DNA from: Bradyrhizobium icense
GTDB taxonomy: Bacteria; Pseudomonadota; Alphaproteobacteria; Rhizobiales; Xanthobacteraceae
DNA: 64,000 bases
Direction: 5' to 3'
NCBI RefSeq assembly: GCF_001693385.1
Contig: NZ_CP016428.1
Span: 4,402,001 to 4,466,000, forward strand
Both the position numbers and the translations under genes were made by a program. Of this stretch, positions 21,791 to 38,021 are shown piece by piece. The number at the start of each line of letters is the position of its first letter. The stretch's first letter is position 1. The notes beneath the pieces were generated by a model. It was not told the DNA's origin. It worked only from the letters and a program-made list of their open reading frames with translations, and did not search any database.

Positions 21791-21873
21791 GGGTCGCTTC
21801 CTTGCTTGGGGTTAGAGCCGGGCAGGATGTTTCCGCACTTGCCCGGCTTGCTATTTTATGACATCATGAATTT

Positions 21874-22068: not shown

Positions 22069-22229
22069 GCGACTAGAACGCACAAAATTGCAACGAGTAA
22101 CACTTTGAATTTGCTTTGGTAATTTGTCAGTAAGCAGGTTCAATTGAGTTCCATCGTTAACGTTTGTGTAAGACCGACTTGCAAAATATGGTCTTGAAAC
22201 CATATGGCGTCCTGTGCATTAGTTAGTCC

Positions 22230-22598: not shown

Positions 22599-22600
22599 CC

Positions 22601-22993: not shown

Positions 22994-23015
22994 TCAAAAC
23001 CAAAGTCGAACACAG

Positions 23016-23039
23016 AGACCGCCTTCGGGCGGTCTTTTT
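23016..23039 (+). terminator. Rho-independent terminator after the toxin-antitoxin operon
   Basis: AGACCGCC-TTCG-GGCGGTCT forms an 8-bp GC-rich stem with a stable tetraloop, followed by TTTTTG. It lies 23 bases after the antitoxin stop. Confidence 0.93.
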
Positions 23040-23105
23040 GTTTGAGTGACCGCATTGACTCAACCGCCGCGGGAAGGTGGAATGGGGCTTTTGGGGAGTT
23101 GAGTT

Positions 23106-24293
23106 ATGCGTATATTGTTGTGCGTTGCTTTTTTGCTGACGGTCATATTCAGCCACCATCATTCCGCGTCGGCGGCCACAGTGTTAATCAACGCTTCTGT
23201 CGGCGGCACAACGATTTTTTCTAATAACTGTCCGGGTCCGTCATCGTGCACGCCGGATGGATACCTGACGCCTCTTTACCAAGTGAACCAAGGAGATGTT
23301 GTTGACCTCGGATCTGTGGAATTAGGACCAGCCTTCACAGGGCCTGGACGTAGCCAGTTTCCTATCTACAGTTCTTATCAGGGCGTCCTAGGCTTCAGCT
23401 GGGGGCCGCTAGCCTTCAGCGCTACTGGGCCCCTCTATGCCAGCTGTTTTGGCGATGGATGCATACCCGACACGCCTCCCACTCTTGTCGAAAGGCTGCT
23501 CTTTCTCGTTCCCGCGGGAGCGACAGAACTGCAGCTGGCCTTCACGGGGCCCTACTCCTACCAGCCGCCGAACGTTACGGCTGCGGTACCAGAAGCCTCA
23601 ACTTGGGCGATGATGATCCTTGGATTTGCTTATTTTGGATATCTGACGCATCGCCGCCGCAAGATCTCCCGTCGTGCGCAAGTAGGCGGAACGCTCCCCA
23701 TTCCGTTTGTTACGAGATCGCTGCTGCTAGCTATCCCAATTGCAATAGGATCTTGTCTGTGCGGGCCGGCCACTGCGGCTACATACAATATTGATGCGTT
23801 TGCTCCTGGCGGCTTGCCAGGCTCCGCCCGTACTTGGCAAATAGACGGCGCTGGGGCCTTCGACGGCTATAATGGCTATCAAACTGCATTCTACGAATTT
23901 CTCCCAGGCGACCATGTGAATTTCGGGTTCATTATCTTCGCACCCGAAATCATCAATGGACGATATCAAAACTACGTCAGGCGCGGCTCTGTTGGAGTTC
24001 AATATTCATTTCCTGGAGAGTTTCAGCAACCTTATGATGTTCTCGCGTCCTGCTGGCTGTGGGACGCCGACTGCGCAATAAGCGACAGCTATCCCAACCT
24101 AACCGTTGGGTTAAATTTTCTGTTGCCGCCCGGAGCAAATGGAATCCAAGTGTTTTGGAGTGGCACGTACTCGTATGCGCCACCCGTTCCAGAACCTTCA
24201 ACATGGGCAATGCTGTTGATCGGGTTCGCTGGTTTAAGCATTCTTGGAAGATCTCGCCGCAAAACCTCCACAGCTCAACTCCCTATCACATAG
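23106..24293 (+). CDS. Tandem double PEP-CTERM protein (two secreted modules fused)
   Basis: The 395-residue protein starts at ATG 23106 with GGGGAG upstream. The signal peptide (LLCVAFLLTVIFSHHHSASA) is followed by a beta-rich domain and a complete PEP-CTERM tail at about 162-190 (VPEASTWAMMILGFAYFGYL then HRRRK). A second hydrophobic signal-like stretch (SLLLAIPIAIGSCLCGPATA) follows, then a second homologous beta domain and a final VPEPSTWAMLLIGFAGLSIL with RSRRK. PEP-CTERM tails are normally terminal and processed by exosortase/archaeosortase-type enzymes. Two full copies in one frame are unusual. No exosortase is in the window. It is cargo of the element. Confidence 0.85.
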   Translation: MRILLCVAFLLTVIFSHHHSASAATVLINASVGGTTIFSNNCPGPSSCTPDGYLTPLYQVNQGDVVDLGSVELGPAFTGPGRSQFPIYSSYQGVLGFSWGPLAFSATGPLYASCFGDGCIPDTPPTLVERLLFLVPAGATELQLAFTGPYSYQPPNVTAAVPEASTWAMMILGFAYFGYLTHRRRKISRRAQVGGTLPIPFVTRSLLLAIPIAIGSCLCGPATAATYNIDAFAPGGLPGSARTWQIDGAGAFDGYNGYQTAFYEFLPGDHVNFGFIIFAPEIINGRYQNYVRRGSVGVQYSFPGEFQQPYDVLASCWLWDADCAISDSYPNLTVGLNFLLPPGANGIQVFWSGTYSYAPPVPEPSTWAMLLIGFAGLSILGRSRRKTSTAQLPIT

Positions 24294-25618
24294 GCTCGTG
24301 CGGCTACCGCTTGCCGCTGCACCGCCCCGATATCTTGATAGCCCGTCGAAGCGCTGGACACAGGCAACGCCCCCAACATGCCAGCCTCTGCAGCCGGCGA
24401 CGATGAGCTGATAGCGAAATTGTTGGAGCCTGGATTAACCAGCAGCGGATCACTAGAGGATTCCGTGCTGTTGAGAGTGAAGCCGGACACCCCACTGTTT
24501 GCGTCAGCACTATTGTAAAACACGTTGTTGGAATGCATCGACACAAGCTGCCCTGAGCCGGCCGCCCACTTTGCCGTTGCAACGCCGGTCAATGTGGATT
24601 GGATGATATTGTTGACCAGGAGAACGACGCTATCTGCGTCAGCAACTTCAAACCCGGAGTTGCCGTTGCCGTAAATTGTGTTTCCATACACAAGCAAAGC
24701 ATGGCTTTGAGCGGTCGTGGACCCCGAGAAATAGATGCCGCGGCCGGTATTCCCTTCAATAACGTTCCCGACGATCGCCACGCCTGGCCCGGTGCCGCCT
24801 TCGGTGATTCCGTCCACCGTGCAATCGTGGATGTAGTTGCCCACGATGAGCCCCATGGTCACGCTGCTCTGCGGGTTGATCCCGCTGCCAATGACAGGCC
24901 CAATCTCGCAGCCCTTTATGACACTGCCGTTGCCGGCCATTACAATGCCGTGCTGTATCGAGCCGCCGCTCGAACCAGAGATTTTGAGATTGTAGACGTG
25001 AGCACCAGCCGAAAGCTGCATAATTGCTCCGTTTGCTGTGCTGGTAATTTCCAAGTTCTCGAAATGCCACCCAGCATGGCTTACGCTGATCGGAGAGACG
25101 CCCGCACCCGTGTTCGCGAGCACTGGCCGCACCCCAGATCTACCGATGACCCGAATGCGGCCACTTGTATTATCACCCGCAACGTTAGACGTGATGTAAG
25201 TCGAGGTTTTGCCCGACGGCGTATTGTTGAACTGAAGGGTATCACCAGCCCGCAAAGCATTGACGATTACGTTCGCAGTGTTGGACGATGGGAAGACATA
25301 CTGACCCCCAATCCGCCAGGAGTTTGTGGTCATGCCGGTAGGGGCCACGTCCAAAGTGACTTGCGGCGTAGCGCCACCAGACCCCGAAACAGCCGTAATC
25401 CAAAAGATCGTTCTATTAGTGTTGGTCGCTCCAGCGATGTTGATTGTTGACTGGCTCGCGCCCGATGTCTCCACGGAGGAGAGATCAGTTCCGGAGTCGA
25501 GCTGTACGGTCGTGCCAGAAACGAAGGTAGCGCTCGTGCCGGTGAGCGTTGCCGACGCGCTATCAGTCGATCCAGAGTTTGCGGGATTGCCGCCAGTGTC
25601 AACGTAGAGTGTTCCCAT
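24275..25618 (-). CDS. Right-handed parallel beta-helix protein, tail-spike-like
   Basis: The 447-residue protein has no obvious signal peptide. Its central part contains repeated short strands with N/G/V periodicity (LIVGNYIHDCTVDGI, VAIVGNVIEGNTGRGI, LLVYGNTIYGNGNSGF, VLLVNNIIQSTLTG), the pattern of pectate-lyase-like parallel beta-helices. The Gly/Ser/Thr-rich N-terminal 120 residues resemble phage appendage proteins. Position at the end of the phage-type gene run favours a tail spike or capsule depolymerase. Its 3' end overlaps the convergent PEP-CTERM gene by 19 bp. Confidence 0.7.
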   Translation of the reverse strand: MGTLYVDTGGNPANSGSTDSASATLTGTSATFVSGTTVQLDSGTDLSSVETSGASQSTINIAGATNTNRTIFWITAVSGSGGATPQVTLDVAPTGMTTNSWRIGGQYVFPSSNTANVIVNALRAGDTLQFNNTPSGKTSTYITSNVAGDNTSGRIRVIGRSGVRPVLANTGAGVSPISVSHAGWHFENLEITSTANGAIMQLSAGAHVYNLKISGSSGGSIQHGIVMAGNGSVIKGCEIGPVIGSGINPQSSVTMGLIVGNYIHDCTVDGITEGGTGPGVAIVGNVIEGNTGRGIYFSGSTTAQSHALLVYGNTIYGNGNSGFEVADADSVVLLVNNIIQSTLTGVATAKWAAGSGQLVSMHSNNVFYNSADANSGVSGFTLNSTESSSDPLLVNPGSNNFAISSSSPAAEAGMLGALPVSSASTGYQDIGAVQRQAVAARAYVIGS

Positions 25619-25635
25619 CTTCTATCCAAGTACTG

Positions 25636-25980
25636 TCAGGCAATGCCCAACGATTGATATTTCAGCGCCCGATTGAAGGGCGCGTCTGACTTCCGCCAAT
25701 TCGCGAGCGCCATTCGCTTTGCGATCTGCAGGGCCGTCTCTCCAGGCTGCAAAACGTATGAACTTGCTTTGCCGCCGATCGGCTTTCCCTTTTCGTCCGT
25801 CAGCGTCACAGTGTTCTCTTCAACGATGAAATGAACATCGATCACGGCGCCGGGGTCGCCGGCCTCGCTGTCCGCAAAACGAGTCTGGGCCCACGTCGTT
25901 TGCACCTCAGGCTTAGGCTTGCGCGCCGCCCGTTGCTTGCTCGCGCCATGCGCTCTGATCTTCTGTGCCCAGCTTGCCAT
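25636..25980 (-). CDS. Hypothetical protein of the phage-like run
   Basis: The 114-residue protein has a basic N-terminus (MASWAQKIRAHGASKQRAARKPK) and then a beta-rich region (AVIDVHFIVEENTVTLTDEKG, SSYVLQPGETALQIAKRMA). No domain is recognised. The ATG directly abuts the stop of the upstream DUF7694-like gene, so it belongs to the same transcript. Confidence 0.7.
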   Translation of the reverse strand: MASWAQKIRAHGASKQRAARKPKPEVQTTWAQTRFADSEAGDPGAVIDVHFIVEENTVTLTDEKGKPIGGKASSYVLQPGETALQIAKRMALANWRKSDAPFNRALKYQSLGIA

Positions 25981-26517
25981 TCAAGCGACCTCCCGCGGCA
26001 AGGACTCTTTCCAGCGCTGATAGGCCGTCTCCCAGGAGCAACCCTCCTCCCCCATGACTTGGCTGATCTGAAGCATGGCGATCGTCTCTTCAGCGAACGT
26101 CAGGTTATGCTCGCCTAGCTTCGCAATGAGTGCCAATGCCTGACCTGTTTCGAAACCCGGTACTCCCACAAGAATTGTCGGAGGCACCGGAATCTCTTCA
26201 TGCAACGGCTTCCAGAGATGCAGGCAATAGGGATGGGTCTTGACGTATTGCGAGAGCGGCGGATGCAATTGCATCACGCACTCCTCTTCATCCCAGAACA
26301 GATCCTTGACGAAGCACATCTCTTGCCAGTTCGGCGAACGTGATTGGTCTGTATTGACCGACACGTGCTCCCAACCCGCTTCAGTCGCCGAAGTGACTTG
26401 AAGCGCACAACCGCAAGGTCCCTGCACAATGAAACGGCCATCCGCGCCATGATCAGGGAAGATGCCCGTATCCCGCACGCGGCCAAGCTCTAGTATCTCT
26501 GGTAGATGGGCTCTCAT
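25981..26517 (-). CDS. DUF7694-like phage protein
   Basis: The 178-residue protein contains GWEHVSVNTDQSRSPNWQEM followed by CFVKDLFWDEEECVMQLHPP and YCLHLWKP. I recognise this block from a domain of unknown function (DUF7694) common in tailed-phage and prophage genomes. The C-terminal region (ISQVMGEEGCSWETAYQRW) is specific to this protein. The start overlaps the upstream stop (ATGA). The function is unknown; the block usually sits among small accessory genes. Confidence 0.75.
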   Translation of the reverse strand: MRAHLPEILELGRVRDTGIFPDHGADGRFIVQGPCGCALQVTSATEAGWEHVSVNTDQSRSPNWQEMCFVKDLFWDEEECVMQLHPPLSQYVKTHPYCLHLWKPLHEEIPVPPTILVGVPGFETGQALALIAKLGEHNLTFAEETIAMLQISQVMGEEGCSWETAYQRWKESLPREVA

Positions 26518-26696
26518 CAGTGCAACTGATGACCTTTGAGCGAAAGATCGGATTCGAACGCATCAAGCGCCTCGCGAGCGTCCTGCAGGCTCACGCCCAT
26601 TCGTTCGGAAATCCGTTCCGCAATGCGCCGACGCTCGGCCAGACGAGCCATCAGCTCCGGGTCAGACAATCCGCTTAGCAATCCGCCGTGCTGCAT
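26517..26696 (-). CDS. Small helical hypothetical protein
   Basis: The 59-residue protein starts at ATG 26696, which overlaps the upstream stop as ATGA; an ATG at 26747 would overlap that gene by 51 bases. The sequence (LMARLAERRRIAERISERMG, then LQDAREALDAFESDL) is mostly charged helix. It is translationally coupled on both sides. Confidence 0.65.
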   Translation of the reverse strand: MQHGGLLSGLSDPELMARLAERRRIAERISERMGVSLQDAREALDAFESDLSLKGHQLH

Positions 26697-26902
26697 CAGG
26701 CCGCCCCCCTCTCTTTCATGATCTGAAGATATTGGGCGCATTGGCATCCCCCTGCCCGAGCTGTCAGAAGGTTACGAAGGATCGCCGCCGGCACACCCGG
26801 CGTTTCCTTTGCCATCTCGACAACGCGCTCATCGATGAATGTGTTGATCTTGCTGCGGAGAGCTTCGATTTGCTCCTCAAGCGGCGGCGTGCGTAGTGCC
26901 AT
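26696..26902 (-). CDS. Small hypothetical protein
   Basis: The 68-residue protein has an N-terminal helix (LEEQIEALRSKINTFIDERV) and a C-terminal Cys-x-Cys (GGCQCAQYLQIMKERG). No domain is recognised. Its start lies 26 bases inside the upstream gene and its stop overlaps the next ATG. Confidence 0.65.
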   Translation of the reverse strand: MALRTPPLEEQIEALRSKINTFIDERVVEMAKETPGVPAAILRNLLTARAGGCQCAQYLQIMKERGAA

Positions 26903-27455
26903 TGGATCCCTCTACTGGTTTCTGGATTGCGGCCAATTCCTGCCGCGCCTTCGCGGCCTCGCCCTGCGCCTGCCTCACAGTCTTTTCGCGCTGTCGATCG
27001 TGCGCGAAGAGGTAGCGGCGGAGGATGCAGGGCAGTTGATGAAACCGCCATTTGTGCTCTTTCGGCCAGGAACGCGGCGCCTCGGCCCGGCTGTCGATGC
27101 GATCCATTGCTTCCGCGACGATCCAGGTTGCGACCGGATTTGCGAGCCCTGCAGCCTCGTGCATGTCGGCAATGTGATCGACCACCTCGGAAAGGACGTC
27201 GATACCAAGCCCCGCATTCTCCAGCGTGAACTGGGCAACGGTTGCCGGCTGTGCAGGGAAGGATCTGACGCCCTTTGCCTCGCACCAATTCACGAAGGCG
27301 GAAAGCGCGACCATCATGGCGGGCGTCTGCTCCATCGGAGCACCGCCGAACTGACGCTTGAGGCTCGCAAGGATGGCAGCCTCGTTGCGCTGATACTGTG
27401 CCGTGCGCTCTGCCAGCTTGGCGTTTTCAAGGGCCTGGTGAACCGGGCTCGTCAT
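26877..27455 (-). CDS. Hypothetical protein with an integrase core-binding-like segment
   Basis: In the 192-residue protein, FVNWCEAKGVRSFPAQPATVAQFTLE followed by DVLSEVVDHIADMHEAAGLANPVA resembles the SAM-like core-binding domain of tyrosine recombinases. No catalytic domain follows; the C-terminal part is a charged coiled coil (DRQREKTVRQAQGEAAKARQ). It may be a co-opted DNA-binding domain. The start overlaps the upstream stop (ATGA). Function is unknown; the resemblance is by eye only. Confidence 0.6.
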   Translation of the reverse strand: MTSPVHQALENAKLAERTAQYQRNEAAILASLKRQFGGAPMEQTPAMMVALSAFVNWCEAKGVRSFPAQPATVAQFTLENAGLGIDVLSEVVDHIADMHEAAGLANPVATWIVAEAMDRIDSRAEAPRSWPKEHKWRFHQLPCILRRYLFAHDRQREKTVRQAQGEAAKARQELAAIQKPVEGSNGTTHAAA

Positions 27456-27700
27456 CTGCCAGCCTTGATCAGGGCCTGGTGCACGGCTTCCAGCTTCATC
27501 CGAAGCGCCAGGTTGTCTCCGGTTTCCCGTGGCGTGCTGCCCTCGAAGCTATCGGACCCGGAATCCATCTCGTTGAGGATCTGAGCCCGCGCGCCCTGGT
27601 CATAAACCGGGAAAAACTCGGCCAGATATTGCGGGGTCGTCTCGACCCCATATCCGTTTCGAACCTGCGTCTTCGTGCGCTTCAGAAATTCGTTGGTCAT
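27452..27700 (-). CDS. Small hypothetical protein of the phage-like run
   Basis: The 82-residue protein (TNEFLKRTKTQVRNGYGVET, then PVYDQGARAQILNEMDSGS) has no recognised domain. ATG 27700 lies two bases after the stop of the upstream Ala/Glu-rich gene and its stop overlaps the next ATG. Confidence 0.65.
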   Translation of the reverse strand: MTNEFLKRTKTQVRNGYGVETTPQYLAEFFPVYDQGARAQILNEMDSGSDSFEGSTPRETGDNLALRMKLEAVHQALIKAGR

Positions 27701-27702
27701 GC

Positions 27703-28881
27703 TTAGGCCCTTCTCATCGAGGCAATGAGCGATCCAAGGTCTTTAGCTCCGCCCCGGCCGCTATCGATGTTAGCTCTCGCCCTCGCCGTCTTGGCGTTCA
27801 GACTGCTCGCCTGCCGCTCAGCGGATGATGCTGATACGCCCGGCCGCTGCACGGACGGAATGTCCCGAGCTGGGAAAGACTTTGGGGCGTTCATGATTTC
27901 GCGATAGCGCATGGCATCCAGCAAAACACGCTGGCCCAGCGCGCTGTTCACCGTCCGATCGTTCGCCAGCGCCTGCATCTCGTCAGGCCTCATGCCCAAG
28001 CTCTTGAGATACGGCTCAACCTTGGACTGGTACTGCTGCACAAGGCCGCGCTCAGCGCCCAGGCTCTCCGCCAGCTTGGCATCCTCTGCGGCCTTGAAAG
28101 TCCGAAGGTCCTGATGCTCAGCGTAGGAGCGCTGTTGCTGGTGCTGCTGCTGCGCCTGCGTGATGGCATGCACGCGGCCAAGAATGTTCATTGCCGACTG
28201 GAAAGCCGGCGGATCGATTTGCGATAAAACGGCTAGTCCCTGCTCGAATTGCAGCGGGGGCAAGCCCGCAAGGTGCGGAACCACCTCGCCCAGTGATGCA
28301 AGCGCGTACACCCGGGCATTTTCCAGGCCGGCCGTGTAGGCTTCGCGGCTCTGACTGGCGGTTTTCAGCTCGGCTTCAACAGCTTCCCTCACCTGCGGGT
28401 GCTTCAGCGCTTCCTCGAGCTTGGGATCGAGGCCGCTGGTTGGCTCGGTCGGGGCAGCCTCCGCTTCCTTAGCTGCCGGCTCTACCGGCTCGATTGCAGC
28501 CGGCTTTTCTGTCCCTAGAATGTGCTCTCGCAGGCTGTCGGCCCACGCTGCAACTTCCTCGTGGCCCCGCCGCTCGACGTCAATCTCGTGCATCAAGCGC
28601 CGATCGGCAAGCTCGTCGACAAGCTGGCGCTGGGTTAGAGCCTCTTTCGGCGCGTCCGGATCTTGCTCAACGGGTTCTTCGGCTGCTTCGGGCACCTCAG
28701 GTTCGCCGCGAAGCTCGGCGATAGATGCCGCCAGCTCCTTGGCGTCCTCGGGGCCCTTCTCAACCGGATCCTCTCTAGTCGTGTAGCCCATGCTGGCGTT
28801 GGCCGCGGCCTCGCCAGTGAGGTTGGCAGCGCCTTTGGTGAACCGGCCGGCGTCGTCGCGAGAAGCTTCAGCTTCCGACAT
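27703..28881 (-). CDS. Acidic, Ala/Glu/Gln-rich phage-type protein (scaffold-like composition)
   Basis: In the 392-residue protein, the first 160 residues are acidic and low-complexity (EVPEAAEEPVEQDPDAPKEA), followed by a helical region with ITQAQQQHQQQRSYAEHQDL and a C-terminal RANIDSGRGGAKDLGSLIAS. This composition resembles capsid scaffolding or internal virion proteins, but I do not recognise a specific family, and no capsid gene is adjacent. The ATG at 28881 overlaps the collar gene stop (ATGA); a TTG one codon earlier is possible. Confidence 0.6.
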   Translation of the reverse strand: MSEAEASRDDAGRFTKGAANLTGEAAANASMGYTTREDPVEKGPEDAKELAASIAELRGEPEVPEAAEEPVEQDPDAPKEALTQRQLVDELADRRLMHEIDVERRGHEEVAAWADSLREHILGTEKPAAIEPVEPAAKEAEAAPTEPTSGLDPKLEEALKHPQVREAVEAELKTASQSREAYTAGLENARVYALASLGEVVPHLAGLPPLQFEQGLAVLSQIDPPAFQSAMNILGRVHAITQAQQQHQQQRSYAEHQDLRTFKAAEDAKLAESLGAERGLVQQYQSKVEPYLKSLGMRPDEMQALANDRTVNSALGQRVLLDAMRYREIMNAPKSFPARDIPSVQRPGVSASSAERQASSLNAKTARARANIDSGRGGAKDLGSLIASMRRA

Positions 28882-29861
28882 CAAATGATCCTCAAAATGT
28901 AGTTGCAGACAATCGTGGGCTGCACGATTCCAAAAGCCGAGCTCGTACCGCCCTGAGCATTACCAGTGAATGTTGATGCAGACTGCGATGCACTGATAGA
29001 CGCGCTCCCGCCGCCCGCTTGGAATCCACCGCCACCAGTTGTGGTATTTGGGAAAGCCGCAGCGTTATGGCTAATGCTGATCGCGCCATTGGAGATCGTG
29101 CCGGACGGGGTATAGGCTGGCAGGTTAGCGGTAACGAGTGTCTTGGATTGACTCCCGCCCGCCTCGCCCAAACCGTCACCGAAACCAGAAACCGCGTCCG
29201 TTAAGCGGCCGGCGCTAGCGTCAAGAGCTGCCGACACGCGCCCGCGCTTGTCCGGCAGATTGAACGTGGTGGTGCCGTCTCCGGTGCCGTAGGTCGTGCC
29301 CATCGCCGCGAACAAGGTCGCGTAAGTCGTGCGGCTGATCGCCTGCCCGATCGGGAAAACGAACGAGCTGTTAGGCGCAGTGGGTAGCCAGTAATCCATA
29401 CCTGCGCCAAGCGGAACATTGTACGGATTGCCGTAGAAGTTCTGGAGATACCAAACCGCATCCGAATTGTTGTAAGTCGCAACGTAGGGCGTGCCCTGAA
29501 TAATCGTGCCTGCCTGCAATTCCACGGAGGGCGCCGAACGCAAGGGTTTCGCGCCCAGGCCGTCAACGTTGAGCGTGACCGTTGCGCCGTTCGTGGCATG
29601 GGGCACAAACGCGAGCATCGCTCCATTCATATTCGCCAGGGAGTCGAATACCTGATTGCTGGTCACGGTGAGCGCCGTGCTCGTCCCGCCCGTGGTAATC
29701 GTGCCGCTGATATCATCCCGCCATCCCGCGGCAGATGCCATCATGGCTCTCGCACTGTCGTTCACGGAAGAGGGGGCCATGCCCTCAGGCCACTGCGCCT
29801 GTGCATCCGCCGTTCCGTTTGAAGCGGCCGTCTTCGACCATTTGTAGAACAGAAGCGCCAT
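28881..29861 (-). CDS. Phage tail-collar-domain fibre protein
   Basis: The 326-residue protein has a Gly/Ser/Thr-rich N-terminal shaft. The tail-collar domain (PF07484 type) is at about residues 155-230: PIGQAISRTTYATLFAAMGTT then GDGTTTFNLPDKRGRV. The C-terminal part is Gly/Ser-rich and ends SAFGIVQPTIVCNYILRI, the conserved end of such fibres. These proteins form or attach the distal tail tip that recognises the host. Its presence without tail-tube or baseplate genes is notable. It is coupled to genes on both sides. Confidence 0.88.
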   Translation of the reverse strand: MALLFYKWSKTAASNGTADAQAQWPEGMAPSSVNDSARAMMASAAGWRDDISGTITTGGTSTALTVTSNQVFDSLANMNGAMLAFVPHATNGATVTLNVDGLGAKPLRSAPSVELQAGTIIQGTPYVATYNNSDAVWYLQNFYGNPYNVPLGAGMDYWLPTAPNSSFVFPIGQAISRTTYATLFAAMGTTYGTGDGTTTFNLPDKRGRVSAALDASAGRLTDAVSGFGDGLGEAGGSQSKTLVTANLPAYTPSGTISNGAISISHNAAAFPNTTTGGGGFQAGGGSASISASQSASTFTGNAQGGTSSAFGIVQPTIVCNYILRII

Positions 29862-30271
29862 TAGACCGCCTCGCCCTTGTCGATCACGGGGTAGCGGCGA
29901 ATGACCTTGTTGCCCTCGACAAAGGGCTGATCAGGCGCCAAGCGGTAATGCTTGTCGGGATCGAAGGGTGCGGCGTCGGCATAGATCATCGGAAGCCAGG
30001 TGCCGCGGTCGTCATCGGCGGGCTTGGCGTCGAACTTCCCAAAACCTAGGACGTTGTTGCTACCGTCAACGAGCGCCCAGGAGTCGGGGCCGGCGCCGTC
30101 CGCGTTGCCGTTGGCAGGGATGGCCGTAGGTTCGTACCCATCGGCGCGGAGAGCCCCATAGACAGCTTGGCGAATGTACTGACTCGTTAGGCCGCCTCGC
30201 TTGGCAGCCGCCTCAGCGACCATTTGTGCGGCCCTGGAGGGGAAGCGGACTTGGATAGGTCGATCGGTCAT
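29861..30271 (-). CDS. Hypothetical phage-type protein with RHH-like N-terminus
   Basis: In the 136-residue protein, residues 1-45 (TDRPIQVRFPSRAAQMVAEA, then RGGLTSQYIRQAVYGALRAD) look like a ribbon-helix-helix unit. The remainder (WALVDGSNNVLGFGKFDAKP, then PMIYADAAPFDPDKHYRLAP) resembles small phage proteins found next to tail fibres. The stop abuts the start of the collar gene. The two-part build may reflect a fusion. Confidence 0.6.
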   Translation of the reverse strand: MTDRPIQVRFPSRAAQMVAEAAAKRGGLTSQYIRQAVYGALRADGYEPTAIPANGNADGAGPDSWALVDGSNNVLGFGKFDAKPADDDRGTWLPMIYADAAPFDPDKHYRLAPDQPFVEGNKVIRRYPVIDKGEAV

Positions 30272-30273
30272 TG

Positions 30274-30630
30274 CTAAACCCTGACCACGGCAGAGAACTG
30301 CGCCGCAGCGGTGGTTGAGGACTCCCCGGCAGAGACAAAGCCCAGGGTGTCGCCCTTGTTGACTAGCGGCGGGTCGAACTGTCCGAAGTCGATTGAGTCC
30401 ACGTCGCCGGCAGCGGAGCCCGACGCGGTAACCGTCACGGTGCTGTTAGCGACGGCCACGCCGTTGATTGTCATGCTCCAGGTGCAATCGCTGCCGGTGA
30501 TACCGCCCTGGAGGCAGCTAGAAGCGCTGTACAGCTTGCCAGTGACCGGAGAGGCGACATAGGCCGTGCTCGCCGCGGAGATGTCCGCAAGGCGCGCTGT
30601 GATGTTAACGAGGTTGCTAAGAGCGGCCAT
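30274..30630 (-). CDS. Beta-rich hypothetical phage-type protein
   Basis: The 118-residue protein is Ala/Ser/Thr/Val-rich (CTWSMTINGVAVANSTVTVT, then GDTLGFVSAGESSTTAAAQF). It has the composition of virion surface or tail-associated beta proteins; no named domain is recognised. The start overlaps the upstream stop (ATGA). Confidence 0.6.
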   Translation of the reverse strand: MAALSNLVNITARLADISAASTAYVASPVTGKLYSASSCLQGGITGSDCTWSMTINGVAVANSTVTVTASGSAAGDVDSIDFGQFDPPLVNKGDTLGFVSAGESSTTAAAQFSAVVRV

Positions 30631-30902
30631 CAGGTGGCCCGCCCCGCTTCAACCGGCGGCATCGTTACCGTGTCATGCCTGCGGAAGTCGGCGCCAGCGC
30701 CATAGATCGGGGCGCCGTCCTTGGTGTAGGCCTCGATGCGAGGGGCGGCGCGTGGCCTCTCCAGGCTCTTGCCGGTGCGGGTCATATGGCCGCCGTCAAT
30801 CAGCCAGTTGAATACGGCTCTGGCCTCGGTGCCGTTGAGGCGCTGCAGCGGCGTTGCCGTCTGACATTGCCGGATCAACTCTTCTAGGTGCTGGTCAGAC
30901 AT
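30630..30902 (-). CDS. Small protein, longer paralogue of the adjacent 30895-31038 gene
   Basis: The 90-residue protein's N-terminal half (HLEELIRQCQTATPLQRLNG then TEARAVFNWLIDGG) matches the upstream 47-residue protein over the pattern EL(I/V)R..Q..TPL..L...EARAVF. The C-terminal half is extra. The pair looks like a local duplication followed by divergence. The start lies 8 bases inside the upstream gene. Function is unknown. Confidence 0.7.
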   Translation of the reverse strand: MSDQHLEELIRQCQTATPLQRLNGTEARAVFNWLIDGGHMTRTGKSLERPRAAPRIEAYTKDGAPIYGAGADFRRHDTVTMPPVEAGRAT

Positions 30903-31038
30903 CGGTCTGCTCCGTGATCTTGTAGCCGCGCTGCTGCATCAGCTCGAATACCGCCCGCGCTTCCATGTTCGAAAGCTGCGCAAGTGGCGTGTGCGCCTGG
31001 AGCATTCGGACAAGCTCGCCCAATCCATCTTCCGTCAT
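30895..31038 (-). CDS. 47-residue small protein, paralogue of the next gene
   Basis: Reads MTEDGLGELVRMLQAHTPLA, then QLSNMEARAVFELMQQRGYK and a short polar tail to TGA (30895-30897). It is homologous by eye to the N-terminal half of the 30630-30902 product. It is the first gene of the long co-oriented run downstream of the iteron-like array. Confidence 0.7.
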   Translation of the reverse strand: MTEDGLGELVRMLQAHTPLAQLSNMEARAVFELMQQRGYKITEQTDV

Positions 31039-31323
31039 CAGAAAACCCGTTCGTTTGTGCTACGGCAGATGTAGTGCAAACGACGCACAGGATCATTCAC
31101 TCGGATTGACAACATCTGCGAGGTATTGCGAAGCGCTCCCAAAAGCAGCGCATAAAACGAGGCCGGAGCAACACCAGCGCAACACAAAGGACTCAAGACA
31201 AAGGACTCAAGCCTTTGATTTCTAAGAGGTGCGAGCGGATTTTGTATCTGTTGGGCCAGATATTGGCCTCTCAGAGCGGCCTTGCTTACCTCGCTGTCTC
31301 TGCCGCTGCAGAGTCTAAAACCC

Positions 31324-31377
31324 GATAACAGCGATAACAGAAGTAACAGAGATAACACCGGTAACAGCGGTAACAGA
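31324..31377 (+). repeat. Iteron-like array: six tandem 9-bp units
   Basis: Six units in exact 9-bp phase: GATAACAGC, GATAACAGA, AGTAACAGA, GATAACACC, GGTAACAGC, GGTAACAGA (consensus about GRTAACAGM). The same unit recurs in inverted orientation at 32236-32262, at the 3' end of the RepA-like gene. Directly repeated short sites next to an initiator ATPase gene resemble replication iterons. Confidence 0.75.
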
Positions 31378-31425
31378 CGAGCCCTCGCGCGCGCGTAGTC
31401 GTTGCGTTCGTCTCACGCGTTCAAG

Positions 31426-31440
31426 CTATCAATCTGATAG
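31426..31440. repeat. Perfect inverted repeat downstream of the terS-like gene
   Basis: CTATCA-ATC-TGATAG, a 6-bp perfect inverted repeat just before the stop of the terS-like gene. On the minus strand there is no T-tract, so an operator or protein site is as likely as a weak terminator. Confidence 0.4.
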
Positions 31441-31445
31441 TTTGA

Positions 31446-32231
31446 TTAAGCAGCCGCGCTCCCCAAATAATGCGCTCTCAGGAATGTTTCGATCTTCCCG
31501 AATATCTCTTCCGGGACGGATTCAGCCTCATCGCTTGGGCATATCTGCTCTATGAGGTCTGACACACGGCCCATAGCGCTCCACAGCCTCGGTGAGAGGT
31601 CTGCAGGTGGTGGGGTTGGATTGTGGGTCAGTTGGGCGGGCGGCTGCTGTACTGGCGTCTCTGGGGCTTTGGTCTGCCCCTCGGGATATGCCGAGCGGGT
31701 TCGGCCATCAATCGATGCCATCAGGTCGGAAACTTTGGGATCAACGATAACGCGCTCGATCCGCGTCGGTGCGTCGATCACATCTTCCGGCCGCTGCCAT
31801 CTGATCACCATGTCAGACGGCGGGGCATCTAGTGCGGCTGCGTTCGCCTTGTCACCGTACTGCCGGCCGAACAGCTTGCTCATGGTCCATTTGAGCGTGT
31901 CCACCTTCAGCTTATCACGCTGCACCTTGGCGTGATTGGCAACCGCCACCGTCTTGTCGCCCTTTTGCTCAAGGACGATATCGCCGGACTCGTCAAACGC
32001 GATCTCTCGAATGAGGTCCGCGTAAAAGTCCATCATCGCTTCGCGGGCTCTGGCGTATTGCTCGCGGAAATCTTTGTTTCCTTCGAGCCAACGATACACC
32101 GTCACCCGGTTCGGCATTTCGTCGCCCCTGCAGATTTGGGTCAGGCTCTCGCCCTCCGCCATCCGCTCGCAAATCGAATTGCCCAGCTCAATTGTGTACG
32201 TCGATTGCGTGGTCATTGTGGTGCTAGTCAT
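31446..32231 (-). CDS. Phage terminase small subunit (Sf6-like)
   Basis: The 261-residue protein's N-terminal part (GNSICERMAEGESLTQICRG, then EMPNRVTVYRWLEGNKDFRE and QYARAREAMMDFYADLIREI) is the helix-turn-helix DNA-binding domain of Sf6-type terminase small subunits. It is followed by VQRDKLKVDTLKWTMSKLFG and RQYGDKA. The C-terminal ~110 residues are a Pro-rich extension. TerS recognises the packaging site and loads the large subunit; no large subunit follows. ATG 32231 overlaps the rep stop; ATG 32216 is an alternative. Confidence 0.85.
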   Translation of the reverse strand: MTSTTMTTQSTYTIELGNSICERMAEGESLTQICRGDEMPNRVTVYRWLEGNKDFREQYARAREAMMDFYADLIREIAFDESGDIVLEQKGDKTVAVANHAKVQRDKLKVDTLKWTMSKLFGRQYGDKANAAALDAPPSDMVIRWQRPEDVIDAPTRIERVIVDPKVSDLMASIDGRTRSAYPEGQTKAPETPVQQPPAQLTHNPTPPPADLSPRLWSAMGRVSDLIEQICPSDEAESVPEEIFGKIETFLRAHYLGSAAA

Positions 32232-33258
32232 CCTCGCTGTTACCGCTGTTACCGCTGTGATCGGGGTACGCCGGTTCGGTCCAGTAACACTTGCCGATTT
32301 TCTGGATTTGGCCCGCTTTGACCATTTTTCGCAGCAAAGCGCGGGTATTATTGCGCGGTTGACCCGTGGCATCGGAGATTTCCAGCGGCGTCATTGGCTC
32401 GCTGTTATCGGCCAGCGCGCCAAGGATAACAGATCGCTCATCCGATCGACGAACCTCAGACGCTCGGCCCAGGATCGACCAGGCGCCCGCGGTGAACATA
32501 ACCGCCGTCTCCTGCTCTTCGACGTCGCGGCCTCGGACATACAGCGTCCGCCCGTCCGCCTTCTGGTCCAGAACCACCGTCGTGTCTGCACAAGCCGACA
32601 AACCGTTAGAACCTGAGAGGGCTTCGAGGGGATCTTCGGCGCCTCCCTTCTTGGTGTGATGCAGGCCCAGCACACAAACTCCGTGCTTAGTTGCCCATGC
32701 CTGCAACGGCGCCCAGGTCGAATAGTCGCTTTCATAGGCGTTCTGATTTTTGTTGCCGGGTGGCTTGATGCGCTGGAGAACGTCAATGACGACGAGGCGC
32801 GGGTCTTTGACGGACGTCCGCCAATGCTCCAGCCTGTCGATAAAGCCTTGATCCAGCGACGGCGCTTCGGTCACCCAATCGAGCCGGGAAAGGTCCGGCA
32901 AGGTCTGGTCATGGGGGAATAATGATCGTATCCGCGCCTGAATGCGCCGATCGCCGTTCTCCATGTCGATGTAAAGAACATCGCCCGGCTGGCAATCTAT
33001 CGAGCCCATAGCAACCCCGCCGGTTGCCACAGCCAGGGACCAATCGATCCCCAGCCATGTCTTTCCAAGCTTCTGTCTGCCAGCGAGCACGGTAAAGCCA
33101 CCGTAGAGATAGCCGGGAACTATCGCCTTCAATGGCGCGAACGTCTTTGCCATCAAATCGTTGGTGTTGGTCCGCTTGAACCTGGGGACGAGCGAAGCGC
33201 CCGGCCCATCGTTTTGAACAACGGCCATACCGTCATCGCGCAACAGGGAGAACGTCAT
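32224..33258 (-). CDS. RepA-like AAA ATPase (AAA_25 family helicase/initiator)
   Basis: The 344-residue RecA-fold ATPase has Walker A GRQKLGKTW at about residue 56, Walker B DPRLVVIDVLQRI, and the sensor segment GVCVLGLHHTKKGGAEDPLE, as in RepA/RSF1010-type hexameric helicases and many phage and satellite replication proteins. A C-terminal winged-helix-like part (PMTPLEISDATGQPRNNTRA) precedes a tail encoded by iteron-like repeats. The start overlaps the upstream stop (ATGA). It probably drives replication of the excised element. Confidence 0.85.
   Translation of the reverse strand: MTFSLLRDDGMAVVQNDGPGASLVPRFKRTNTNDLMAKTFAPLKAIVPGYLYGGFTVLAGRQKLGKTWLGIDWSLAVATGGVAMGSIDCQPGDVLYIDMENGDRRIQARIRSLFPHDQTLPDLSRLDWVTEAPSLDQGFIDRLEHWRTSVKDPRLVVIDVLQRIKPPGNKNQNAYESDYSTWAPLQAWATKHGVCVLGLHHTKKGGAEDPLEALSGSNGLSACADTTVVLDQKADGRTLYVRGRDVEEQETAVMFTAGAWSILGRASEVRRSDERSVILGALADNSEPMTPLEISDATGQPRNNTRALLRKMVKAGQIQKIGKCYWTEPAYPDHSGNSGNSEDD
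32236..32262 (-). repeat. Iteron-like 9-bp repeats in the 3' end of the rep-like gene
   Basis: GCTGTTACC, GCTGTTACC and GCTGTGATC follow in 9-bp phase; on the minus strand the unit is GGTAACAGC, identical to units of the array at 31324-31377. Within the gene it encodes the repeated Ser-Gly-Asn near the C-terminus, so one DNA segment may serve as protein code and as binding site. Confidence 0.65.
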
Positions 33259-33554
33259 CGCGCCTCCATTCCGACCGCAATCAGGTCTTCAATGAGGGCG
33301 CCGCCGTGAGCGCTCAACAGGCTATTGGCCGTGGCGATTTCATAGAGACAATCGACCACCTCCCGCTTGCGGTGCGGGTTGCGTTGAGCCATGCCGCCCA
33401 GCAAGGCGGCCTCGATCTCGAATTGGCGAGCCATGCCGCCCAGCAAGGCGGCCTCGATCTCGAATTGGCTCAGCTTCGCGATTGCGACATTGCGGCGCGC
33501 GTCACGCATTGCCGCCGTAACGTCGTCCGTTTCGCAAATGGTGACATGTTTCAA
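33255..33554 (-). CDS. Small protein with an in-frame 14-residue tandem duplication
   Basis: The 99-residue protein starts at TTG (33554), which overlaps the upstream stop as TTGA and has GGAGGG seven bases before it. A perfect 42-bp duplication yields the 14-residue unit QFEIEAALLGGMAR twice (second copy ends MAQ). The rest (KREVVDCLYEIATANSLLSA) is helical. No domain is recognised. It sits directly upstream of the RepA-like ATPase, so a replication accessory role is possible. Confidence 0.65.
   Translation of the reverse strand: MKHVTICETDDVTAAMRDARRNVAIAKLSQFEIEAALLGGMARQFEIEAALLGGMAQRNPHRKREVVDCLYEIATANSLLSAHGGALIEDLIAVGMEAR
33386..33469. repeat. Perfect 42-bp tandem duplication inside a coding region
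   Basis: Two identical 42-bp copies (33386-33427 and 33428-33469) lie head to tail and keep the reading frame. Perfect identity implies a recent event, by slippage or recombination, and possible length variation between strains. Confidence 0.95.
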
Positions 33555-33775
33555 GCTGGCGCCCTCCAGGAACGGATGCGGCAGGGCACGCGCTTGCGGA
33601 AACGACCGCCGATCGACTCGCGCACGACAATGAAGCCGCGGCCAAACACTTGGCGCGCAAGTGCATCTGAAGCTTGAATATCGGTCGGCGGTGCTATAGA
33701 TTCCGTAGCGTCGTGGTAGACAACAGCTTTCGGATTGGGGCGGCCCTCGGGCTGCCCCTTTTCAATTTCGGACAT
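33551..33775 (-). CDS. Small hypothetical protein in the rep operon
   Basis: The 74-residue protein has a polar N-terminus (EIEKGQPEGRPNPKAVVYHD) and a basic C-terminus (RFRKRVPCRIRSWRAP). The stop overlaps the TTG start of the following gene, linking them. No domain is recognised. Confidence 0.6.
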   Translation of the reverse strand: MSEIEKGQPEGRPNPKAVVYHDATESIAPPTDIQASDALARQVFGRGFIVVRESIGGRFRKRVPCRIRSWRAPA

Positions 33776-33778
33776 GCC

Positions 33779-33979
33779 TCAAGCTACCTCCAGACCGCTC
33801 GCACGCTTCTGGTAGCCCTCGCGAATCTTGCTCTTGAGGCCAACCCAGCGGCCACCCTGCTTGAACACGCCGTACAACTCGCCCTTCTCGGCGAGATAGA
33901 AGGCTCGCCGCTCGGCAATGCCGGTGAAGCGGCTGATTGATTTGATCCCTTCTAGGAGGTCGTCTGCGATGTTATCCAT
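33779..33979 (-). CDS. Excisionase/AlpA-like small HTH protein
   Basis: The 66-residue protein starts at ATG 33979 with GGAG upstream, preferred to ATG 34021. It reads LLEGIKSISRFTGIAERRAF then YLAEKGELYGVFKQGGRWVG, the compact winged HTH used by excisionases and AlpA-type regulators (helix pair, then a wing with K-x-G-G-R-W). It lies between the MerR-like regulator and the rep operon, where excisionase or AlpA genes are expected in prophages and satellites. Confidence 0.75.
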   Translation of the reverse strand: MDNIADDLLEGIKSISRFTGIAERRAFYLAEKGELYGVFKQGGRWVGLKSKIREGYQKRASGLEVA

Positions 33980-34038
33980 GATCTCCGTTTCCGATGATTG
34001 CACTAAGTACGCATTACGCACTTACACGGACAAAATTT

Positions 34039-34515
34039 TTACTGGAGCTTCGAAAGATAGGTTTCGAGCCGAATCGCCATCACAACGTCTGGCCAGGTAG
34101 TGTCGCGCTTAGCAAAGGTCTCGCGCTGGCCGATCGTGTAGGTATAGGACCACTCGGGGGCGTCTGCCGGCCAGTTAGCTTTCCCCCTCATGAGGCGCCC
34201 CTCATATGCAAAGATGGTTTCGTGCCCTCCAGCGATGGCAAGCTCAAATTGCTCAGGAGTAGTAAGCAAAGAGGCCCGAATGATTGCAGAGATCGACAGT
34301 AATTCGCCGATTGAGATTTGCCGCTCTGCAAACGGATGAATTACACAAGCAACAATGGCTTCGCGTCGGGAGAAACGTCGATGCGTGCCGGTACCTGCAC
34401 GCTCTGTCCCCCGCTCTGCCTGTATCACCCCGGCATCCGCCCACAGCTGGATAGACCGGCGTTTTGCGCCGGTAATGTTGACCAAGTCGCCTAGCGAATA
34501 GCTTTCCATCATCAT
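34039..34515 (-). CDS. MerR-like HTH regulator of the element
   Basis: The 158-residue protein begins MMMESYSLGDLVNITGAKRR and continues with SIQLWADAGVIQAERGTERA and HRRFSRREAIVACVI. This is a MerR-type winged helix with the usual Y/W-x-x-x-G-x-I/L spacing and R-R-F/Y-S motif. ATG 34515 follows AGGA. The gene is divergent from the integrase with under 100 bp between, so it may control int and the rep operon as an immunity-like switch. The C-terminal domain is not recognised. Confidence 0.78.
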   Translation of the reverse strand: MMMESYSLGDLVNITGAKRRSIQLWADAGVIQAERGTERAGTGTHRRFSRREAIVACVIHPFAERQISIGELLSISAIIRASLLTTPEQFELAIAGGHETIFAYEGRLMRGKANWPADAPEWSYTYTIGQRETFAKRDTTWPDVVMAIRLETYLSKLQ

Positions 34516-34609
34516 AATTCCTAACATAATGCGTTTTACGTGCTTGTCAAGCGTTGCGAATTGATGTTGAATGCTTCCGGCGATTACCGGCCGCTTCAAG
34601 GGGGATTCC

Positions 34610-35818
34610 ATGGCTACCGTTCGAAAGCGCAAGTTGCCGTCCGGCCTGATCCGCTGGCAGGCTGGTTATATGGACGGGGCCGGCAAGCGCCGCTTCAAGA
34701 TGTTCGAGAGGAAGGCGGAGGCGGAAGCCTGGCTGGTCGAGGCCCGCCACGATGTCGCCCGCGGCACTCACACGCCCGGCAGCATATCCCCGACCGTGAA
34801 GGATGCGGCAGCGCTGTGGATCAAACGGTGCGGCGAGAAGCGCCTGGAGCCCATGACCGTGAAGGGGTACGAGGAACACGTCGACCTGCATATCGTCCCG
34901 TTCATCGGGGCGAGGAAGCTTTCCGAAATAACCGTTCCGGCCGTCAACGCCTTCGCCGACCAGCTCCGCGAGAACGGACGATCGGCCGAAATGATCAAGC
35001 GAGTGGTGCGCTCGCTCGGCAGCATCTTCAAGGAGGCCCGCCGGCGCGGCCTCGCCAACACGTCGCCGACGTCCGGCATCGAACTGGACTTGCCCGATCG
35101 GGAGGATCCCCGCCCCGTTATCCCGAGCAAGGCGGAGCTACAGGCGATAATCAATGCTGCGACTGGCCGCTGGCGACCGGTTATCCTTGTCGCGATCTTC
35201 TGCGGGCTGCGGGCCAGCGAGCTGCGGGGCCTCCGATGGGCAGATATCGATTTCGAGGCCAAGCAACTGAACCTCACCCAGCGGGCGGACGCCTCCCACC
35301 GGATCGGCAAGCTCAAATCTAGGGCCGCCTATCGCTCGATTCCCTGCCCTCCGATCGTGATCAACACGCTTCGCGAATGGAAGCTGGTTTGCCCCAAGCG
35401 CGACACCGGCAAGAAGGATGCGGCCGGCAAGCCGGTGGAGGTTCTGGAGCTCGCGTTCCCGAACGGGCTTGGCAAGGTGGAGAGCCATTCGAACGTTCTC
35501 GAGCGCGGCCTGGAGCCGATCCTGATCGCGGCCGGTCTGGCCGAGAACCGTCCCGTTCTGGATACTGCCGGTAACCCGGTTCTCGACAAGTCTGGAGAGC
35601 CCAAGGTGGTCATGGTCGGAAAGTACGGCATGCACTCGCTACGCCACGCCTGCGCTTCCCTGTGGATCGAGAACGGGCATAACCCAAAGCAAATACAGCG
35701 CCTCATGGGGCATAGTTCGATTAAGGTGACGTTTGACGTTTACGGCCATCTGTTCGCGGATGCCGAAGCGGATCAGCGGGCAGCCGAAACCCTGCAAAAC
35801 CGCCTGCTCGGCGCCTGA
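34610..35818 (+). CDS. int: Tyrosine recombinase integrase of the element
   Basis: The 402-residue integrase starts at ATG 34610, chosen from AGGGGG seven bases upstream. It has an N-terminal arm-binding part (RKLPSGLIRWQAGYMDGAGK), a SAM-like core-binding domain at about residues 60-160, and a catalytic domain with Arg in CGLRASELRGLRW, HxxR in MHSLRHACASLW, and the Tyr nucleophile in FDVYGHLFAD. It ends 57 bp before attR, the standard position for tRNA-targeting integrases. A segment around residues 250-330 with LDTAGNPVLDKSGEPK is an insertion relative to shorter relatives. Confidence 0.95.
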   Translation: MATVRKRKLPSGLIRWQAGYMDGAGKRRFKMFERKAEAEAWLVEARHDVARGTHTPGSISPTVKDAAALWIKRCGEKRLEPMTVKGYEEHVDLHIVPFIGARKLSEITVPAVNAFADQLRENGRSAEMIKRVVRSLGSIFKEARRRGLANTSPTSGIELDLPDREDPRPVIPSKAELQAIINAATGRWRPVILVAIFCGLRASELRGLRWADIDFEAKQLNLTQRADASHRIGKLKSRAAYRSIPCPPIVINTLREWKLVCPKRDTGKKDAAGKPVEVLELAFPNGLGKVESHSNVLERGLEPILIAAGLAENRPVLDTAGNPVLDKSGEPKVVMVGKYGMHSLRHACASLWIENGHNPKQIQRLMGHSSIKVTFDVYGHLFADAEADQRAAETLQNRLLGA

Positions 35819-35875
35819 AAGCAACACCTCGGCAACACGGGAGGGCTAAGCCATTGATGGGATTCAGCATCCAAA

Positions 35876-35927
35876 GGATTTCTACTCCGCGGGTTGCAGG
35901 TTCGAATCCTGCCGGGATCGCCACTAC
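35876..35927 (+). repeat. attR: 52-bp direct repeat, displaced tRNA-Arg 3' half
   Basis: Identical to 18937-18988. It holds the anticodon stem-loop 3' side through the CCA but lacks the 5' half, so it is not a functional tRNA. The chromosome resumes at 35928. Confidence 0.95.
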
Positions 35928-37902: not shown

Positions 37903-38021
37903 ATGGAACCAACAGCGAGGCTCCGCGTCGAATCTCCTGCTGCCAGCCCTCCGCCGGGGTGCGCCGCCTTCGCATATCGTCCACGCTCGGGTTGTTTGGA
38001 ATCTGTGACGGGAGTTCGAAC

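Follow-up and report, generated by a model that had tools for sequence, protein, structure and literature searches.

The window analysed here is the whole 64,000-nucleotide stretch of the Bradyrhizobium icense genome presented above (G000:C1:4402001-4466000, within an 8.3-Mb single-contig genome). It contains an element of 16,939 bp (18937-35927) that is bounded by a perfect 52-bp direct repeat, and the left copy of this repeat lies within an intact tRNA-Arg(TCT) gene (18908-18984). At the right end, an integrase gene on the plus strand is divergent from the gene of a MerR-like regulator, which is followed by one long run of minus-strand genes in the order Orf80, Orf99, AAA_25/RepA-like ATPase, small terminase subunit (TerS), s47/s90, s118, s136, tail collar fibre, head scaffolding protein homologue, s82, s192, s68, s76, DUF7694 protein, s114 and beta-helix protein. 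Neither a large terminase subunit (TerL), a portal protein or a major capsid protein (MCP) nor a lysis gene was recognised in the element among the 29 window proteins that were scanned. We consider this element very likely to be an integrated satellite of tailed phages, and the conclusion that it belongs to a satellite type previously undescribed in Bradyrhizobium is well supported.

Insertion site and gene content

The features of the borders and of the right two thirds are given below in window coordinates; G numbers denote genomes, and satellite types I to III and phage groups P and E are described further on.

18937-18988, plus: attL, the 3′ part of tRNA-Arg(TCT) and 4 bp; 52-bp perfect repeat with attR
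24275-25618, minus: right-handed beta-helix protein, tail spike or cargo (PF13229, 1.6e-8)
25636-25980, minus: s114, present in satellite types I, II and III
25981-26517, minus: DUF7694 protein (PF24746, 5e-25; 62% to the G223 satellite, in which s76 and TerL flank it)
26517-26747, minus: s76, directly before TerL in the type II satellites G087, G178 and G187
26696-26902, minus: s68, same cassette as scaffold-s82-s192
26877-27455, minus: s192, same cassette as scaffold-s82
27452-27700, minus: s82, encoded after the scaffold both in satellites and in E clusters
27703-28881, minus: head scaffolding protein homologue, 392 aa (homologues, C-terminal motif, model)
28881-29861, minus: tail collar fibre (PF07484, 5e-15; phrog_9116, 7e-21)
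29861-30271, minus: s136, satellite protein, RHH-like N-terminus by eye
30274-30630, minus: s118, possible capsid cement or decoration protein (homology, gene context, model)
30630-30902, minus: s90, resembles s47 by eye; 58% to G125
30895-31038, minus: s47, conserved small satellite protein; 93% to G057, 70% to G125 and G087
31324-31376, plus: iteron cluster B, six tandem 9-bp units, RRTAACA(G/C)
31446-32216, minus: TerS, Sf6 type (PF20901, 6e-36; phrog_1482, 2e-37; 57% to the type III satellite G057)
32224-33258, minus: RepA-like AAA_25 ATPase, putative replication protein (PF13481, 3.4e-30; C-terminal winged HTH, HTH_IclR 2.4e-6)
32237-32253, minus: iteron cluster A, two pattern matches 9 bp apart
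33255-33554, minus: Orf99, no assigned function; 69% to the type III satellite G057
33779-33979, minus: Orf80-group small protein, resembling an excisionase by eye only; 91% and 85% to the G042 and G223 satellites
34039-34509, minus: MerR-like regulator, divergent from int (PF13411, 22.0 bits, cut-off 21.6; 50% to G042)
34571-35818, plus: tyrosine integrase (PF00589, 9.2e-17)
35876-35927, plus: attR, right border formed by the second 52-bp repeat copy

Twenty of the 29 proteins were compared with Pfam and PHROGs, and eight left-side proteins and s68 with Pfam only; s47 was covered only through the overlapping frame 30884-31096.

A search of 41 genomes for the right flank gave strong matches, besides G000, in four (G001, G024, G023 and G019). 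In G001 (locus L125) and G024 (L126), the left flank, the att sequence and the start of the right flank are continuous, and the joined flanks (1-1565) aligned at 90.6% and 89.9%, respectively. The matches in G023 and G019 are uninformative because they begin past att and no tRNA was found there. The empty sites in two relatives and the 52-bp repeat therefore indicate that the element is a precise 16.9-kb insertion. The original prediction, made from the sequence of the window, had placed a phage satellite at 24275..35818, and this span covers the right two thirds of the element; the repeat and the empty sites add the approximately 5.3 kb on the left that it had missed. The GC content of the element is 53-63%, compared with approximately 65% on the left side. 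A tandem array of a 14-bp unit (37816-37905) lies just outside the element.

The predicted integrase, divergent MerR-like regulator, RepA-like ATPase and TerS were all recovered by profile matches, the predicted iterons were confirmed as clusters of six and two units, and no primase domain was seen in the element. The integrase is 76-77% identical to those of the G042 and G223 satellites, both of which are in tRNA-Arg, and the ATPase is 68-71% identical to its four best matches in other Bradyrhizobium elements. Iteron clusters A and B flank terS, and of the 12 matches of the iteron pattern in the 64 kb, 11 are no more than 2.5 kb away from the ATPase gene. Such arrays were found in the window and, in weaker form, in G125 (n = 2), and were absent beside the nine other ATPase relatives tested (G189, G078, G004, G218, G012, G190, G058, G145 and G148); judging from these positions, the iterons may go with the ATPase/TerS pair and not with the ATPase alone. 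Their role as an origin is putative. Orf99 contains a perfect in-frame 42-bp tandem duplication (33386-33469), which is probably a recent copy event because the G057 homologue (85 aa) is 14 residues shorter.

Elements that share the window-type ATPase (approximately 70%) have other head genes downstream of it (L064:14480-17441, L067:12278-16444 and L066:12036-16457). A major head protein is encoded by the 10.5-kb tRNA-Trp element of G189 (phrog_617, 3.7e-23) and by the element of G004 (phrog_10, 1.9e-30), and the G078 element (15.6 kb, tRNA-Glu) has a weak head-protease match. We take the two head proteins to be HK97-like, and the three elements are possibly further small capsid-bearing elements.

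The scaffolding protein homologue and other structural proteins

Homologues of the protein encoded at 27703-28881 lie between the portal and MCP genes in five full prophages (group P: G020, G049, G136, G010 and G043) and also in G103 and G107. In G043, on which the profiles were tested, the portal matches phrog_1216 (1.7e-142), the scaffold phrog_3927 (9e-15) and the MCP, a major head protein, phrog_1328 (1.4e-85); the homologue in the group E cluster of G183 likewise matches phrog_3927 (1e-12). Two of the 46 database relatives are named 'Scaffolding protein' by UniRef (P0025 and P0028), and a search of viral contigs with the window protein gave one locus. A C-terminal motif, PxVxxPG, is present in 5/5 P, 23/24 E, 12/15 satellite and 15/16 database scaffolds, compared with 3/495 other proteins longer than 200 aa. 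The AlphaFold2 model of the window protein, built from a 14-row alignment, has a mean pLDDT of 72 and consists of helices over its whole length, with a helix pair at the C-terminus, and four of the five BFVD models that it matched at E<=0.001 are named scaffold or scaffolding protein. In a quick tree of 60 rows, the P scaffolds form one group (SH-aLRT 100) and the E scaffolds form another together with one database row (99), whereas those of the satellites are diverse, fall outside both groups and do not constitute one clade; the G033 scaffold is labelled E in the tree and in the motif counts, although it groups with the satellites.

Scaffold homologues were also observed in two other genera. 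They occur in G375 as scaffold-s82-s192-s68 near a tRNA-Lys gene, with no int or TerS seen at this locus, and in G335 as scaffold and s82 only; both were left out of the element count.

Over 109 aa, protein s118 shares 50% identity with a phage protein of G136, and its family is encoded directly downstream of the MCP in G020, G010, G043 and G158, one gene off in G049 and two in G136. The AlphaFold2 model is all-beta (pLDDT 87). In Foldseek, it matched an endospore appendage protein and C1q-like jelly rolls best, and the cement protein of phage KHP40 has rank 29. Because the TM-scores are approximately 0.5, the top matches are non-phage proteins and the cement protein is the last of the 29 at E<=0.001, a cement role is only possible. 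The s136 family has 11 rows including the window, all of them satellites, and extends to type III. The collar fibre is 66% identical to that of the satellite in G079 and 63% to that of the E cluster in G220. The beta-helix protein has no homologue in the loci compared. The tail fibre that the original prediction had assigned to the element is present as a collar fibre, whose role in helper host range, also suggested there, is hypothetical, and its spike-like protein may be a tail spike or cargo.

Related elements in Bradyrhizobium

Searches over 242 Bradyrhizobium genomes matched the ATPase in 28 genomes, the scaffold in 49, the P-phage MCP in 38, the PF20901 TerS in 24 and the satellite TerL in 21. 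Gene order was read in 41/49, 11/28, 15/24 and 13/21 of the scaffold, ATPase, TerS and TerL genomes, respectively, and at 15/46 viral TerL loci. The 41 scaffold genomes comprise 13 satellites, the G033 fragment, 5 P and 22 E, and the other eight are short partial matches. This gene-order search, suggested by the original prediction, revealed related mosaic elements in at least 18 of the 242 genomes. Both ends were found for 14 of the 18, which measure 14,898-17,334 bp (mean 15,891, coefficient of variation 4.3%) and lie at tRNA-Arg, -Ser or -Lys; eight have att repeats of 45-53 bp, four of 18 bp and two of 14-15 bp (G125 and G087, less certain). The element of G215 is cut by a contig edge. Three types can be distinguished by their head and packaging genes:

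Type I (Sf6-type TerS and scaffold): window, G125, G198, G078b
Type II (TerL and scaffold): G087, G042, G093, G223, G193, G034, G187, G178
Type III (Sf6-type TerS, 311/312-aa scaffold and MCP): G057, G134, G066, G079, G013

A TerS candidate of family F32 is present in seven of the eight type II elements (PF18932/DUF5681, tested on G042 only), and the type III profile matches, tested on G057, are phrog_3927 (5.5e-32) and phrog_1328 (5e-98). No portal was seen, in types I and II by a portal alignment over the genomes and in type III by gene order and size only. The Sf6-type TerS and the satellite TerL never occur in one element (TerL missing in 9/9 Sf6-TerS elements and Sf6 TerS in 8/8 TerL elements, Fisher 4e-5, a value that treats the elements as independent, which related ones are not, and that omits G215, G081 and the G033 fragment). 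The presence of the scaffold in 13/13 scaffold-bearing elements is no evidence because these were found by their scaffold; among the satellite-type elements found by TerL, eight of nine carry it, and the ninth, G081, is scarred.

The genes of the window are closest to those of different satellites. The integrase and Orf80 are closest to G042/G223; TerS, s47, Orf99 and a small RHH-like protein to G057 (57%, 93%, 69% and 93%); s90 to G125, the only tested relative that shares the iterons; scaffold, s82 and s76 to G087; and the DUF7694 protein to G223. Backbone and capsid modules have therefore been exchanged among satellites. Beyond the genus, 20-bp repeats enclose a type I-like element of 15,829 bp in G321 (probably Tardiphaga), and the viral contigs L155 and L156 (15,091-bp contig) carry scaffold and satellite TerL. 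The TerS search of viral contigs gave two loci, one of them weak; against the genome contigs, alignment A3 gave four loci and alignment A5 none.

Three further observations concern these elements and their neighbours. Of the 120 relatives listed for the window TerS, the longest contig measures 14.5-18.1 kb in twelve, approximately the satellite size, and such contigs are possibly complete free or packaged elements in metagenomes. In G134 (L220+L221), one tRNA-Ser gene is occupied in tandem by the type III satellite and by a neighbour of 12.3 kb that has an integrase of its own and a primase-like gene. Group E is a phage-like cluster in 22/242 genomes (L079 with L118, L085, L086, L088-L106; e.g., L090:69-15668) with an MCP family (20/22), tail/ejection-type families and a distal scaffold-s82-s192-s68-collar block. 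As displayed, 21/22 of the loci adjoin at least one host-like family (F16 CoA-transferase, F8 or F25), and the G183 cluster has extra genes and gaps around the portal and before the MCP; group E is possibly a domesticated prophage or a locus resembling a gene-transfer agent.

Cargo and the left third

The left third begins with a module shared with other satellites and also holds cargo.

19272-20160, no single strand: attL-proximal module o76, o96 and o54, 72-88% to the satellites G087, G125, G057 and G042 (o96 also 64% to G223)
20627-21790, minus: 387-aa protein, twin-arginine-like motif by eye, no Pfam family
21874-22068, plus: small protein, RHH-like by eye, no Pfam family; 93% over 46 aa to G057
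22230-22993, plus: HigBA-like pair, cargo (Gp49 PF05973, 1.3e-18; HTH_3 PF01381, 6.7e-8)
23106-24293, plus: PEP-CTERM cargo protein (PF07589, 8e-13, two stretches)

The 387-aa protein, which was compared with Pfam only, is the sole protein longer than 250 aa without any assignment and has no homologue in the loci compared. In the PEP-CTERM frame, the motifs lie in the middle of the protein and at its end, as if two genes had been fused.

Proposed mechanism and alternative explanations

A phage satellite has been described as an entity that is not a phage and that encodes mechanisms or signals favouring its packaging in wholly or partly phage-made particles (PMC11389934, cited, like the articles below, from the part of the text available). 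With respect to this broad definition, the virion genes of the element are incomplete, with no TerL, portal or MCP recognised, and packaging and capsid-directing functions are represented, by homology, by TerS and the scaffold homologue. We propose that a suitable tailed phage, probably a podophage, would infect the cell and that the regulator would release the element, which would excise and replicate via RepA from the iteron region. The satellite TerS would then recruit the helper TerL to satellite DNA, and the satellite scaffold would compete with the helper scaffold for the helper coat protein, so that smaller heads would form; these heads (approximately 16 kb vs 42-45 kb for the phages) would carry the satellite's own cement and fibre. 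We lean slightly towards head redirection driven by the scaffold.

Members of the scaffold, MCP and s118 families are all found in the P phages, and in two of the five tested (G010 and G020), 22-bp repeats beside the integrase delimit 41.9 and 45.4 kb; these are the only two P-phage att sites mapped, and neither is the tRNA-Arg repeat. In the prophages of G099, G057-C170, G108 and G119, an Sf6-type TerS (41-45%) is paired with an F39-type TerL (46-48%), and therefore a TerL partner for such a TerS exists. In G057, a type III satellite coexists with an Sf6-TerS prophage.

Several observations weigh against this interpretation. The identity of the window scaffold rests on homologues, motif and model; the protein has no PHROG family and only a sub-cut-off Pfam DUF match, its Foldseek TM-scores are only 0.24-0.31, as expected because the helices are long and flexible, and the motif is missing in 3/15 satellite and 5/5 type III scaffolds (one of six type III rows being an unrelated 311-aa protein). 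Induction by an infecting phage, RepA/iteron replication and TerS packaging with a helper TerL are putative steps. No single phage matching both the TerS and the scaffold modules was found: the P phages are without an Sf6 TerS, and none of the P portal, scaffold and MCP families was found in the Sf6-TerS prophages. The P-phage MCP occurs in 0/13 scaffold-bearing satellite genomes (control 38/242) and the P portal likewise in 0/13 (controls 6/6), and the whole G000 genome contains no phrog_2 TerL match, whereas 11/14 control genomes do. There was also no match in G000 to the P-phage portal or MCP alignments, the portal and capsid searches that were made genome-wide. A resident helper in G000 was thus sought by P MCP, P portal and phrog_2 TerL, and none was found; because the satellite genomes lack P MCP and portal and G000 lacks phrog_2 TerL, the helper is probably an infecting phage. 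A mutual exclusion of satellites and MCP phages was considered (0/13 vs 38/229 genomes, Fisher 0.23), and no claim is made.

The element might be a decayed prophage in which the TerL-portal-capsid block was deleted and scaffold, fibre and TerS were left over. The scaffold-s82-s192-s68-collar genes also form a block in the phage-like E clusters, the G178 gene run is interrupted by genes that look transposase-like by eye, and one relative, G081, bears visible deletion scars: its primase and TerL genes are short and the scaffold is missing (L157 agrees with it in gene sizes). However, the collar gene, where present, stands before the scaffold in satellites and after s68 in E clusters, the satellite TerL (F31) clusters apart from that of the P phages (F39), and the P and E scaffolds (SH-aLRT 100 and 99) are apart from those of the satellites, themselves not one clade. 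Moreover, the 14 mapped elements are of one narrow size, the window genes are open, and a similar 15.8-kb element occurs in another genus. Compared with the P, E and Sf6-TerS prophages found, the gene order is not that of a full phage minus a block. A simple deletion prophage was rejected on gene order, scaffold tree and size, although G081 is such a derivative, and for the window element we regard decay as improbable. A domesticated island, immobile now, whose phage-derived proteins serve the host (with toxin-antitoxin, PEP-CTERM and beta-helix proteins as cargo) would explain the HigBA-like pair, the PEP-CTERM protein and the lack of a resident helper. The empty sites in two close relatives, the intact int and att and the mosaic gene exchange with sister elements that occupy several tRNA genes make it very improbable.

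It is also conceivable that the element is a satellite that does not remodel heads: TerS would pack concatemers into full-size helper heads, and the scaffold would, for example, block helper head assembly. Precedents are the phage-inducible chromosomal minimalist islands (PICMIs), which package concatemers without capsid remodelling genes according to the available text (PMC10803314), and AH14b (16.8 kb), which is found in full-size heads, probably as trimers (PMC4936722). Against this, the scaffold is of full length and keeps the C-terminal motif common to phage scaffolds, it accompanies eight of the nine elements found by TerL, and type III elements have a scaffold together with an MCP of their own. 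We consider this alternative rather unlikely.

A satellite of tailed phages thus remains our preferred interpretation. That it would be a little-described type in Bradyrhizobium, as had been predicted, is well supported, with no TerL, portal or MCP recognised by the profile scan and no derivation by deletion from full prophages, the gene order differing from that of the full prophages found and the scaffold lying outside groups P and E. The accompanying statement that capsid genes are absent is borne out for TerL, portal and MCP, none of which was recognised, but not for the scaffold homologue (27703-28881) and the possible cement protein (30274-30630). We know of no characterised satellite with TerS and TerL and without a capsid gene, or with MCP and scaffold and without TerL and portal. 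In the literature searched, with most subscription papers outside it, no title or abstract start concerned Bradyrhizobium satellites, and one review, on bacterial adaptation to plants, mentions both 'phage satellite' and 'Bradyrhizobium'. The element extends phage satellites to rhizobia. The chances are about even that Bradyrhizobium hosts a superfamily of satellites of approximately 16 kb with exchangeable capsid modules (I, II and III), related backbones and no portal seen. If so, these elements would form a natural series between head-redirecting satellites and those that build their own heads, in which the size switch would be a full-length scaffold of phage type. Three partial head-and-packaging kits on overlapping backbones allow a stepwise comparison of how capsid-forming satellites may have arisen.

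Comparison with known satellites

The original prediction compared the element with phage-inducible chromosomal islands (PICIs), and the satellite-like part of that comparison stands. PICIs, including the Staphylococcus aureus pathogenicity islands (SaPIs), are elements of approximately 15 kb with a specific att site, int, a divergent regulator, replication genes with an origin and sometimes terS (PMC6092414, PMC12409344), and in Gram-negatives the regulator is merR or alpA according to a figure legend (PMC6092414, PMC12409344); the window element has 16,939 bp and lies in tRNA-Arg(TCT). The replication genes of PICIs comprise a primase and a replication initiator, their att sites are never occupied by prophages, and they show induction, interference, packaging and transfer that depend on a phage. 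However, the assignment of the window element as a plain PICI is not supported. The absence of structural genes is among the features stated for PICIs in the available text (PMC6092414), whereas the window element has a collar fibre, a possible cement protein and no recognised primase, its redirecting candidate is a full-length scaffold homologue rather than a small switcher, and its sister elements carry TerL or MCP. Judging from its genes, the element would work in the manner of a PICI, but we would not classify it as one, because PICIs are described without structural genes and it encodes a scaffold homologue, a possible cement protein and a fibre. Capsid-forming PICIs (cf-PICIs) encode all proteins for their own small capsids and packaging (PMC12409344). 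The type III relatives resemble them in encoding scaffold and MCP (PMC12409344, PMC10803314), but no portal was seen in the elements studied here and type III shows no TerL; the window element is not a cf-PICI because no MCP was recognised in it, whereas its five type III sister elements have one.

Other satellites share single features with the window element. AH14b of Pseudomonas sp. ANT_H14 is likewise a satellite of 16.8 kb and encodes a primase of its own as well as a homologue of tail assembly protein I, but the authors of the study found no terminase in it and the word 'scaffold' is absent from the part of the text available (PMC4936722). Mulch and Flayer are satellites with encapsidation machinery but, as described in the accessible text, without key replication genes, whereas the window element has a replication-type ATPase and no MCP (PMC10690885). 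PICMIs lie next to fis and, in the text available, have no capsid remodelling genes (PMC10803314); the window element is in tRNA-Arg and has a scaffold homologue. The proposed redirection of head size has precedents in satellites that direct the assembly of small heads. SaPIs redirect head assembly by CpmB and Rcm, which mimic the helper scaffold (PMC12409344), and TcaP of the phage-inducible chromosomal island-like elements (PLE) and Sid of P4 are scaffolds that are encoded by the satellite and direct small heads (PMC10945586). TcaP and Sid are external scaffolds (PMC10945586), whereas the window protein has its homologues in the head scaffolds of the phages themselves.

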